From the NCBI GenBank assembly GCA_943354905.1, contig CALRDL010000004.1:1-58495 (forward strand): DNA of 58,495 nt, written 5' to 3'. Shown here one piece after another: positions 78 to 37,668 of the stretch (within the stretch, counting starts at the first letter, position 1; every line of letters starts with the position of its first letter). The position numbers and the translations under genes are program-made. The notes beneath the pieces are model-generated. The model had not been told where the DNA came from. It saw nothing but the letters and a program-made list of their open reading frames with translations, and made no database searches. This stretch comes from Candidatus Nomurabacteria bacterium. GTDB lineage: Bacteria; Patescibacteriota; Minisyncoccia; Phycocordibacterales; UBA9973.

Positions 78-148
78 TGGGATATCGTCTAATGGTAGGA
101 CAGAGGCCTTTGAAGCCTTTAATTGTGGTTCGAATCCATATATCCCAG
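78..148 (+). tRNA. tRNA-Gln (anticodon TTG)
   Basis: Acceptor stem TGGGATA/TATCCCA, D-arm GTCTAATGGTAGGAC, anticodon stem-loop GAGGC-CTTTGAA-GCCTT giving anticodon TTG, T-arm with GGTTCGAATCC; G discriminator; no encoded CCA. Confidence 0.93.
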
Positions 149-234
149 CTCGAGGAACGAAGGTGACGAAGATACTGGATTTAGTAAAATTCAGTAAAGA
201 ATTTAAAAACGAATGCGAGGGATAGTAATTTTGT

Positions 235-306
235 ATGACTCATTTCATCTATATTCTTGAATGCTCAGATAAAACTTTATATGTAGGTTGTACAGCTAGG
301 TACTGA
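235..306 (+). pseudogene. GIY-YIG nuclease N-terminal remnant
   Basis: ATG frame reads MTHFIYILECSDKTLYVGCTARY then TGA; YxYILxCxDxxLYVGxT is the GIY-YIG N-terminal motif; no continuation found downstream. Confidence 0.6.
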
Positions 307-339
307 GACCAGTGGGTTGAATGTGCCGAGATAAAAAGA

Positions 340-828
340 TTATTGCGTATATTTGAAGTAACATTTAAAAGCCTCTTTAAAAGGCATACAATATTTATTG
401 GGATGTGAACACAGATCTTTTTTTATTTCTTCCACAGACATTAAGGAAAAACTAGATATTTCATTAGGATCTGGAAAAATTTTCTTCATCTTGCCTATGA
501 AAAGGTGATGTATAGCTCTCTCTTGTTTGTTTACGATATCGAATCGGCCTGCATTTTTTAATGCAGTTACTATTCCAAGTTCTTCTTTTAGCTCTCTTTT
601 TGCCGCAATTATGTAGCTTTCTTTTTGTTCGACATGTCCACCAGCAGAAGAAGTTATTTTATTTGGGTAAGTTTCTTTATTACTTGATCTTTTACATAAC
701 AAAATTTTTCCTTCTTTATTAAGAAGTAGAATATGGACACTTCTTGTAAAAAGTTTCAGCTTTTTCGCTTCTAGCTTTGTTCCAATTTTTATCAACCTAT
801 CTTTTTTATCAACTAAATCGTATTTCAT
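340..828 (-). CDS. NUDIX hydrolase
   Basis: 162 aa; GGHVEQKESYIIAAKRELKEELGI matches the Nudix box GX5EX7REUXEEXGU. Confidence 0.85.
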   Translation of the reverse strand: MKYDLVDKKDRLIKIGTKLEAKKLKLFTRSVHILLLNKEGKILLCKRSSNKETYPNKITSSAGGHVEQKESYIIAAKRELKEELGIVTALKNAGRFDIVNKQERAIHHLFIGKMKKIFPDPNEISSFSLMSVEEIKKDLCSHPNKYCMPFKEAFKCYFKYTQ

Positions 829-1695
829 TTATTTAATAAGATCTTTTATTTTTTCAGTCACACGTTCAACGCTGTCATTTACAATAAATAAAACATTAAC
901 TCCTTTTTGTATAGATTGAGCGGTTGAATTAAACTCATCTAGCTGTCGTAAATCTAAAGTATTATTTATAGCTAATCTGAAATCACTGCTAGATTTTATA
1001 CATCTATCTGCTAAGCGTGCTGCAAGGTTCGGCAAAACTGGGGAAGGTGGTAGAACATATATTAAAATAAATTCACTACTTTCTTTATCTTTTAAATAAT
1101 CTCGCAAGCTAGTTAAATTTAAAGGATTCTCTTCGATAATAGCTACATTAGTTTTAGTTAAGATTTTTTCTAGATCAGTTTTCTGAATTCCATACTTACC
1201 CCTACCTGGTCTTTCCATATTTATTATAAACCCTCCTTTGGAAAGAATTTCATCAAATTGAATTTCATTTATAAAATTATAATGCTCACCATGACTTTCA
1301 TAAATTCTTCGCTCTCTAGTTGTAGTATTTACAACACTATCAAATCCCAAAGATTTTTTAATAGTTTCTTTACCTACTGCACCTGGGCCAGATATTCCTA
1401 AAATAATTTTTTTTGGTCGCTCTATTAATAATTTAGTTCTTATTTTTTCAAAAGTATCTTTTTCAATCAAACTAGGAATATTATTTAAGTTATTTGCTTG
1501 TACACCCAAACTTTTTGCTACTTGAGGCAGTGCTCTTTGCCATTCTATATAGTGTTGCATAAGAAAATCTATATTACTCTCCACGAGCTCTAAGACTTCT
1601 TTAGAAAAATGTTCTTTCAGGGAATTTAAATTGTTTCTAAATAATGCTTTCAAAGCCGAATTTTCTACATTACCTTCTTGTGTATTATGTATCAT
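829..1695 (-). CDS. guanylate kinase-like P-loop protein
   Basis: ISGPGAVGKETI P-loop, TTTRERR and SHGEHYNFI resemble the guanylate kinase GMP-binding region; abuts the NUDIX gene. Confidence 0.6.
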   Translation of the reverse strand: MIHNTQEGNVENSALKALFRNNLNSLKEHFSKEVLELVESNIDFLMQHYIEWQRALPQVAKSLGVQANNLNNIPSLIEKDTFEKIRTKLLIERPKKIILGISGPGAVGKETIKKSLGFDSVVNTTTRERRIYESHGEHYNFINEIQFDEILSKGGFIINMERPGRGKYGIQKTDLEKILTKTNVAIIEENPLNLTSLRDYLKDKESSEFILIYVLPPSPVLPNLAARLADRCIKSSSDFRLAINNTLDLRQLDEFNSTAQSIQKGVNVLFIVNDSVERVTEKIKDLIK

Positions 1696-35461: not shown

Positions 35462-36847
35462 TTATTTTTGAATTTTAAGACCAAGTTCTTTCAATTGTTT
35501 TTCAGATATTGGGGCCGGAGAACCCATCATCAAATCTTTACCTTCTCCGGTTTTTGGAAATGCAATTACTTCTCGAATATTTGGTTCATTTTGGAGAATC
35601 ATTGCAATACGATCGATACCAGGAGCAAATCCTCCATGTGGAGGTGCACCATAAGTAAAGGCTTCGAGCATGTGTCCAAATTTCTTTTGTTGATCTTCTT
35701 CGGAAATATTTAAAAGTTTAAAAACTTGTTTTTGTAAATCTCTTTCGTGAATTCGAATACTTCCAGAAGAAAGTTCATAACCATTCAAAACCAAATCATA
35801 TGCATTTGCGCGAATAGAAAACAAATCCTCACCCCTCATAAACTTTTCTTTATCTTCTTCTTTGATCGAACAAAATGGATGATGCACTGCTTGTACTTCG
35901 CCTTCATCAGTTTTTTCAAACATTGGAAAGTCTAATACCCAAGCAAAAGCAAGTTCATTTGGATTATTTTTATTTATTCGCATATCTGGCTTATCGGAAC
36001 CATATTTTTCTAAAGATTCTTTGTATGATAATCTAGGAAAAGGGATCTGGGTAAAATGTTTTTCTGGGTAAACATTTTTAACTAATTCGATAAACATCGC
36101 CTCAGTGTATTCGAGCACTTCTTCTTGAGTAACAAAAGACATTTCAAAATCAAGTTGTGTAAATTCTGGTTGTCTATCTCCTCTAGTATCTTCATCTCTC
36201 ATACATCTAGCAATTTGAAAATATTTTTCAAAACCAGCCACCATAGAAAGTTGCTTGAATTGTTGTGGTGATTGTGGCAACACATAAAATTGACCATTAA
36301 AAGTCCGAGAAGGAACCACGTATTCCCTAGAACCTTCAGGCGTACCTTTCATTAATATTGGTGTTTCAATTTCAACAAAGTCGTTCTCATGCATATACTT
36401 TCTAAAAAAAGTAATTATTTTATCTCTCATTCGAATATTTTTCTGCATTCTTTCAGTGCGTAAATCAAGATATCTATATTTCATTCTAATATCTTCGCCA
36501 ACTTCCATAGTATTTTCGTTTATTTGAAACGGTGTGGTCTCTGCTTTGTTTAAAACTTCTATATTCAAAACTTCGATTTCTACCCCTCCACCTTGCTTGG
36601 CATTTTTATCATTTCGCTCTTTTACTAAACCTTGAACTTTCAAAACCCATTCTGGACGGATTTCTTTTGCTGAAGCGATAGCCTCAGGATGGGTTGGTAA
36701 AGTCACACATTGCACTTTCCCAGTCATATCTCGCATATCAAAAAATACCATTTTACCCTGATCACGTCTGACATCCACCCAACCAGCAATAACAATTTCC
36801 TTACCAATATGCTCTTTTAAATCTTTTATATAAATTCTATCTTTCAT
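35462..36847 (-). CDS. aspS: aspartyl-tRNA synthetase
   Basis: RYLDLRTERMQKNIRMR, ETPILMKGTPEGSREYVVPSR, FAPGIDRIAMIL class II motifs. Confidence 0.93.
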   Translation of the reverse strand: MKDRIYIKDLKEHIGKEIVIAGWVDVRRDQGKMVFFDMRDMTGKVQCVTLPTHPEAIASAKEIRPEWVLKVQGLVKERNDKNAKQGGGVEIEVLNIEVLNKAETTPFQINENTMEVGEDIRMKYRYLDLRTERMQKNIRMRDKIITFFRKYMHENDFVEIETPILMKGTPEGSREYVVPSRTFNGQFYVLPQSPQQFKQLSMVAGFEKYFQIARCMRDEDTRGDRQPEFTQLDFEMSFVTQEEVLEYTEAMFIELVKNVYPEKHFTQIPFPRLSYKESLEKYGSDKPDMRINKNNPNELAFAWVLDFPMFEKTDEGEVQAVHHPFCSIKEEDKEKFMRGEDLFSIRANAYDLVLNGYELSSGSIRIHERDLQKQVFKLLNISEEDQQKKFGHMLEAFTYGAPPHGGFAPGIDRIAMILQNEPNIREVIAFPKTGEGKDLMMGSPAPISEKQLKELGLKIQK

Positions 36848-37105
36848 GTGATTTTACGAAATCATACCGCGCAACGACAATTAAAGCGCGGTAATTGAAA
36901 AAGCAAAAATCGCCTCTTCAAACTTACCTTATTTGATAAATTTGCAGGGGCGATTCTTGCGCTTGTGGTGAGGCGCTATCGAACCACGGTGCCACCCTAC
37001 TTCGTCACGCTATAGCTCGGTTACGAGCAAAAGCGGATATCTCTTTTAAGCATCTCCAGCCTCCCCGTTGTCAATGGCTCAACAGCTTCTTTGTATAATA
37101 ACATG
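36848..37105 (-). promoter_or_regulatory. T-box leader of aspS
   Basis: AGGGTGGCACCGTGG (36998..36984, minus) plus downstream terminator GCAAGAATCGCCCCT...AGAGGCGATTTTTGCTTTTT whose 5' arm can alternatively pair with the T-box; GCTCGTAACCGAGC hairpin upstream. Confidence 0.85.
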
Positions 37106-37125
37106 CCTAATTATAAAATCAAACT

Positions 37126-37668
37126 TTAAAATTTATCTGGAAATTCAAATTCATGCACAGAGCTATTATGAATTACTTCGTGCACTTCTTCGTGCAATAT
37201 ATTATGAAGTAAACGAATAATTCCTCCGGAAGTCACCACTAAAATTTTCTTTTCTTTCGAGTTATTTTGTATATACTCGATAAAAGCAAAAACTCTTTGT
37301 GTCACATCTTCGACTGATTCACCACCATACGGACGATAGTCGTATTTTTGATTTTTATCTTTTTCTTTCATTTCCCCCGTAGTATCCATTTCACTAAATT
37401 TTTTTCCTGCAAGTGCTCCAAAATCTCGTTCTCTTAATCTCACATCAAATTTTATTTCTAAATTAAGTTTTTGATTTAAAATTTCTGATGTTTGTTTACA
37501 CCTCAATAAATCAGAGGAATATATTTCATCGAAGTCATTTTCTATTTCTGATAATGTCTTTTGGGCTTGTTCGATACCTTCTCGGTTCAAAGGACTATCA
37601 ATTTGCCCCGTTACAGCACCAGTTGCATTGTTCACTGTTTTTCCATGACGTAAAAAATACATTTTCAT
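37126..37668 (-). CDS. histidine phosphatase family protein
   Basis: MYFLRHGKTVNNATG; RLRERDFGALAGK; YGGESVEDVTQRV. Confidence 0.85.
   Translation of the reverse strand: MKMYFLRHGKTVNNATGAVTGQIDSPLNREGIEQAQKTLSEIENDFDEIYSSDLLRCKQTSEILNQKLNLEIKFDVRLRERDFGALAGKKFSEMDTTGEMKEKDKNQKYDYRPYGGESVEDVTQRVFAFIEYIQNNSKEKKILVVTSGGIIRLLHNILHEEVHEVIHNSSVHEFEFPDKF

Follow-up and report, generated by a model that had tools for sequence, protein, structure and literature searches.

The aspS locus and its leader

The window analysed here is the whole 58,495-nt contig C4 (CALRDL010000004.1) from the 0.75-Mb genome of a Candidatus Nomurabacteria bacterium. It carries aspS on the minus strand (35462-36847, ATG at 36847), and all features of the locus given below lie on this strand. 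The gene encodes a bacterial-type aspartyl-tRNA synthetase (AspRS) of 461 aa with no GAD domain by Pfam, and the nearest AspRS sequences were those of Ca. Nomurabacteria/Paceibacterota MAGs, at 84-88% identity. A histidine-phosphatase-family gene (37126-37668) lies on the other side of the leader, which is 278 nt long. From 5' to 3', the leader contains a candidate promoter, Stem I, a linker, an antiterminator, a terminator and an extra hairpin before the ATG, and the switch region spans 37088-36898. Folding of the leader beat all 200 shuffles (z -4.7). A pattern scan showed a candidate sigma-70 promoter at 37095-37122 (TTGATT-16-TATTAT with an extended TG), and transcription is expected to start near 37088; this position should be read as putative because the count of such sites was not above chance.

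The reduced Stem I suggested by the preliminary description proved to be an ultrashort element of 30 nt (37058-37087), consisting of a K-turn and a single hairpin, and the corresponding pairs covary in sets of 68 and 75 leaders. Its C-stem (37087-37084/37061-37058) is followed by the K-turn, with the bulge GUU at 37083-37081 and GA at 37080-37079 opposite GA at 37063-37062, then by an upper stem (37077-37076/37066-37065) and a 9-nt terminal loop, AUUGACAAC (37075-37067). The upper stem is weak, with only two G-C pairs around the loop, and unconstrained folding of the leader favoured a different pairing there. No long Stem I carrying an IDTM, which would contact the elbow of the tRNA, was found in this leader. 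The loop holds GAC and then AAC. Alignment with other aspS leaders set the register so that GAC (Asp, 37072-37070) is the specifier, as had been proposed, and tRNA-Asp would pair with it through the anticodon GUC. The 57-nt linker that follows (37001-37057) contains an F-box-like CGUAA and a reduced Stem II region, which is degenerate and without a recognisable S-turn motif.

The complete T-box antiterminator was located at 36944-37000 by sequence, comparison with related leaders and folding energy, with AGGGTGGCACCGTG at 36998-36985. Helix A1 pairs GUAGGG (37000-36995) with CCCUGC (36949-36944), helix A2 pairs GUG (36987-36985) with CGC (36952-36950), and the T-box bulge UGGCACC (36994-36988) lies between them, so that the UGGN bulge of the class is present. 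The A2 loop carries a 22-nt insert relative to leader L041. The intrinsic terminator occupies 36898-36955, with a hairpin at 36955-36908 followed by TTTTTGCTTTTT, the U-rich tail being at 36909-36898. The hairpin reuses CGCCCCUGC, its 5' arm taking up the 3' strand of the antiterminator, and strand CGCCCCTGC (36952-36944) is common to both structures, which bears out the mutually exclusive pairing described earlier. The simple 12-bp terminator stem of that description has to be replaced by a stem of 19 bp with two 1x1 mismatches. Because of these mismatches, the terminator was picked up neither by the simple consensus scan nor by the strict terminator test, and folding energy is what supports it. 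Its energy was -20.7 kcal/mol versus -19.2 kcal/mol for the enforced antiterminator, and such near-equal energies are as expected of a switch.

Sequestration of a Shine-Dalgarno sequence, as in translational T-boxes with ultrashort Stem I, was not found in the window leader, where the start region comes only after the U-tailed terminator (36955-36898). Between terminator and ATG, about 17 nt from the latter, is an extra hairpin at 36893-36865, UACCGCGC...GCGCGGUA (ACCGCGC...GCGCGGT), with an 8-bp stem of -13.8 kcal/mol.

Covariance models and conservation of the leader

The generic Rfam T-box model RF00230 scored the window leader at 12.3 bits against a gathering score of 93, none of the 20 related loci passed, and no usable T-box match was obtained at gathering or permissive thresholds. 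In the window's own genome, the model gave two sub-threshold matches, on C3 and C1. The match on C3 is the ileS T-box. That on C1 falls within the reading frame of a DNA polymerase I-like protein, and T-box patterns with one mismatch on C7 and C13 fall within open reading frames as well; these were all rejected. The exact T-box pattern had no match among viral contigs.

A scan of AspRS loci yielded 12 aspS leaders of one architecture, including that of the window. Once these were aligned, 91% of the cells in the proposed helices were paired, compared with 32-49% for slid versions, and the covariation exceeds 500 of 500 shuffles. Model R1 was built from these 12 leaders; the ileS leader was left out because a first alignment that contained it misplaced its Stem I, and it served as a held-out test. 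Model R2 was built from 75 leaders, excluding the window genome and L037. It detected the window leader with 59.6 bits (E 7e-11; next window match E 2.7) and the ileS leader of the same genome with 50.8 bits, as a held-out yet not fully independent model, since its 75 leaders include related ones, gathered with a model whose training had included the window. In these 75 leaders, without the window, 272 cells showed a compensatory double change versus 92 in shuffles, and the score was 0.569 versus 0.182 in shuffles and at most 0.118 when slid, counts that lean towards the structure because the alignment was fitted to it. The check proposed in the preliminary description, an Infernal search with the Rfam model, came out negative, while the covariance support whose absence was to refute the T-box was obtained with our own model. 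The comparison of aspS leaders, also proposed there, gave a conserved leader in relatives.

Codon and discriminator match

In 64 of 65 leaders, the hairpin loop contains a codon that ends in C and suits the synthetase encoded downstream, with AAC counted as fitting aspS. The aspS leaders (n=50) have GAC in 29 cases and AAC in 20 (~40%), the single exception being L179, where the sequence is GAUGAUAA and AAC lies across the boundary of the loop. The loop codon was AUC in 12/12 ileS leaders and AGC in 3/3 serS leaders. There were no cross-matches between aspS, ileS and serS codons, and label shuffling gave at most 50. This test excluded three ileS leaders whose Stem I was misplaced by R1 (L001, L161 and L167); UUAUCA was read by eye in L001. 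Of 15 thrS leaders, 14 had ACC in a loop comparable to this one; these loops were chosen with a motif fitted by eye, and thrS Stem I is built differently. One tyrS leader had UAC in the loop.

The variable base of the bulge also followed the gene. It was UGGU in 15/15 ileS, UGGA in 15/15 thrS and UGGC in 3/3 serS leaders, and among aspS leaders (n=51) UGGC in 43 and UGGU in 8. Base N73 in the tRNAs of the window genome is G for Asp, Asn and Ser, A for Ile and U for Thr, which fits UGGC, UGGU and UGGA, respectively, and the UGGC of the window leader is complementary to G73 of its own tRNA-Asp. The eight aspS leaders with UGGU would form a G-U wobble with G73, as read from the tRNAs of the window genome.

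Distribution in CPR bacteria

The preliminary description had considered a T-box in a CPR-like genome noteworthy, and the element turned out to be common across the phylum. Searching with R1, which was trained on aspS leaders, showed it in 70 of 247 genomes of the order (E at most 0.01) and in 108 of 380 genomes of the phylum (E at most 0.001), the two genome sets overlapping and the E-values being rough owing to short calibrations. The miniature T-boxes precede aspS, ileS, serS, thrS and tyrS. Strict terminators followed 79 of 95 cores versus 1.4 after shuffled ones. Many related genomes have no T-box before aspS, including close relatives such as L038, whose AspRS is 87% identical, and loss or transfer would therefore have to be frequent.

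The linker from Stem I to the T-box is shorter than 50 nt in 17 of 68 leaders. An S-turn motif was found in 44/51 long-linker and 3/17 short-linker leaders, and an F-box-like motif in 27/51 long-linker leaders. In five leaders of 85-110 nt total length (L018, L053, L144, L158 and L159) the linker has 20-27 nt, too short for the usual Stem II, indicating that they lack it. Four of the five were each found in a genome of a separate family, and L053 is a Nomurabacteria MAG.

T-boxes that seemed to stand before genes other than aspS (L041, L145, L149, L175, L179, L188 and L195) were rejected as such, with aspS lying further downstream. In L041, L145, L149, L175, L179 and L195, at least one unrelated gene lies between the Asp/Asn T-box and aspS, for example a Mrr-like nuclease (L149) or a NUDIX-like gene (L195), named by eye, and these intervening genes would be under the same switch.

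Comparison with known T-boxes

Actinobacterial T-boxes reportedly also carry the specifier in the terminal loop (Sherwood et al. 2015). In translational T-boxes with an ultrashort Stem I, a Stem II with an S-turn is taken to be required. Saad et al. (2012, 2013; cited in PMC4206432) are said to have described a Clostridium acetobutylicum T-box on genes of tRNA-dependent amidation. That system reportedly has a similar link to the formation of Asn-tRNA by AspRS and amidotransferase, whereas the CPR elements stand on aspS, with a miniature Stem I and one specifier, GAC or AAC.

The window leader shares with the canonical transcriptional T-box (RF00230, e.g. Bacillus subtilis glyQS) the specifier, the K-turn, the UGGN bulge in an A1/A2 antiterminator, the overlapping U-tailed terminator and the downstream synthetase. 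In contrast, the CPR element has no distal Stem I, hence no IDTM, and scores far below the Rfam gathering score. With the translational ileS T-boxes of Actinobacteria, which have an intermediate or ultrashort Stem I (PMC7583486), it shares a truncated Stem I with a K-turn and no IDTM, and many CPR relatives also have the Stem II S-turn and an F-box-like sequence. Unlike them, the CPR switch is a terminator acting on aspS, ileS, serS, thrS and tyrS, and some CPR leaders lack Stem II. Judged by sequence, two features are unusual: a transcriptional T-box with an ultrashort Stem I, and the apparent lack of Stem II in five leaders.

Transcriptional T-boxes have been viewed as needing a long Stem I (PMC7583486). 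A 2008 survey listed T-boxes in Firmicutes, Actinobacteria, Chloroflexi, Deinococcus-Thermus and a few Proteobacteria (PMC2494555), and TBDB rests on an RF00230 search, its class II model having been run only on Actinobacteria and on class I matches with truncated Stem I (PMC7778990). No description of T-boxes in CPR was found in the open-access literature; subscription papers and TBDB entries lay outside this scope, and no priority is claimed.

A miniature T-box on aspS

The preliminary description had placed a T-box upstream of aspS, and all its motifs were recovered there. Together with the covariation, the codon and discriminator match and the held-out detection, this makes it about 90% probable that the window leader belongs to a miniature form of transcriptional T-box riboswitch that occurs across CPR. 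Its anatomy, alternative pairing and matches to codon and discriminator are those of a T-box as far as sequence and comparison go, and by analogy with known T-boxes it would bind tRNA, respond to charging and control termination. In this mechanism, uncharged tRNA-Asp would pair at two points, through its anticodon with the GAC of the ultrashort Stem I loop and through its free GCCA end with the UGGC of the T-box bulge. The pairing would stabilise the antiterminator, and RNA polymerase would continue into aspS. Charged tRNA-Asp would be unable to pair with the bulge, and the terminator would form and stop transcription. The window leader misses contacts deemed important in studied T-boxes, because it has no distal Stem I and its Stem II is degenerate. 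On balance, we lean towards a broader view in which CPR bacteria have their own class of transcriptional T-box, which would read tRNA without the Stem I elbow contact. In the shortest leaders (L018, L053, L144, L158 and L159), which would do so without Stem II as well, the specifier, K-turn and acceptor end would suffice, and the aspS specifier would switch between Asp and Asn, given a single AspRS for both tRNAs.

As for the second part of this view, no asparaginyl-tRNA synthetase (AsnRS) was found above the cut-off in any of 40 T-box genomes, and GatB was found in 28 of 28 genomes checked; an AsnRS-like frame in G127 (C31:31728-32729) was below the cut-off. From these gene contents, the likely route to Asn-tRNA is charging of tRNA-Asn by AspRS followed by amidation, and if AspRS also charges tRNA-Asn, either codon on aspS leaders is explained. 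The occurrence of AAC does not track AsnRS, as all T-box genomes checked lack it above the cut-off. These gene contents would also suit a single T-box that reads both tRNA-Asp and tRNA-Asn through adjacent GAC and AAC codons, as would the order of codons in the window loop, the AAC at the specifier position in 20 of 50 aspS leaders, the shared G73 of both tRNAs and the two-codon T-boxes that Saad et al. 2013, by its title, reported. We regard this as unlikely. A trailing AAC also follows AAC specifiers (L020, L155 and L158) and most GAC loops read GACAC, so that the AAC of the window appears to be loop sequence and not a second specifier.

It is more doubtful still that the leader is a decaying T-box, whose terminator merely lowers aspS expression after the tRNA response was lost. 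The degenerate Stem II, the weak upper Stem I, the insert in the A2 loop, the hairpin before the ATG and close relatives without the element would agree with decay, but the specifier, K-turn, UGGC, A1, A2 and terminator are all intact, a model not trained on the window scored the leader highly, and leaders with still less Stem II recur in several families. A translational role of the extra hairpin, raised in the preliminary description, is about as improbable: the hairpin is there as described, stable and near the start codon, but it is missing from most aspS leaders with a T-box, and this lack of conservation leaves the role unsupported. That the leader is a plain terminator resembling the T-box consensus by chance would agree with the Rfam result, but is contradicted by covariation, held-out detection and the concordance of codon and discriminator across synthetase families, and has hardly any probability.

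If true, a widespread tRNA-sensing switch would mean that CPR bacteria monitor tRNA charging. Gene regulation in CPR is poorly understood, and sensing of charging is plausible in host-dependent cells that lack amino-acid synthesis. The switch would also widen the range of T-boxes beyond the few phyla of the earlier survey (PMC2494555), and such natural minimal T-boxes could serve to test which contacts are required for sensing tRNA, as set against the long-Stem-I view (PMC7583486).

Other T-boxes and a tRNA gene pair

The window genome has a second T-box, before ileS (L001 1502-1640; G000:C3:23447-23598), with AUC in a 6-nt loop, a UGGU bulge, the S-turn motif AAAGUAGAA and a terminator. The T-boxes before thrS, which combine a hairpin-loop ACC with a UGGA bulge, were seen in L166, L171, L172, L174, L177, L178, L182, L183, L185, L187, L189, L193, L194 and L197; in many of them Stem I is seemingly closed by a long-range AGAUU/AAUCU pairing and not in K-turn form. 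The tyrS leader with a UAC loop (L242) lies upstream of an ORF at 106-1482 (minus strand) and may act on translation, since it has no clear U-tailed terminator and its hairpin adjoins the start codon. A second T-box subfamily, GGUCCC-hairpin-GGGRUUGGGCC with a candidate UGG (Trp) specifier, was found in L170, L173, L176, L180, L181, L184, L186, L191, L192, L196 and L199; downstream genes were trpB (L176), a YbdK-like carboxylate-amine ligase (L173, L180 and L192) and a Leu-dehydrogenase-like gene (L184). Finally, tRNA-Gln genes of equal score occupy identical coordinates close to the ends of two contigs (window 78-148 and G000:C31:78-148), perhaps as an assembly duplication.
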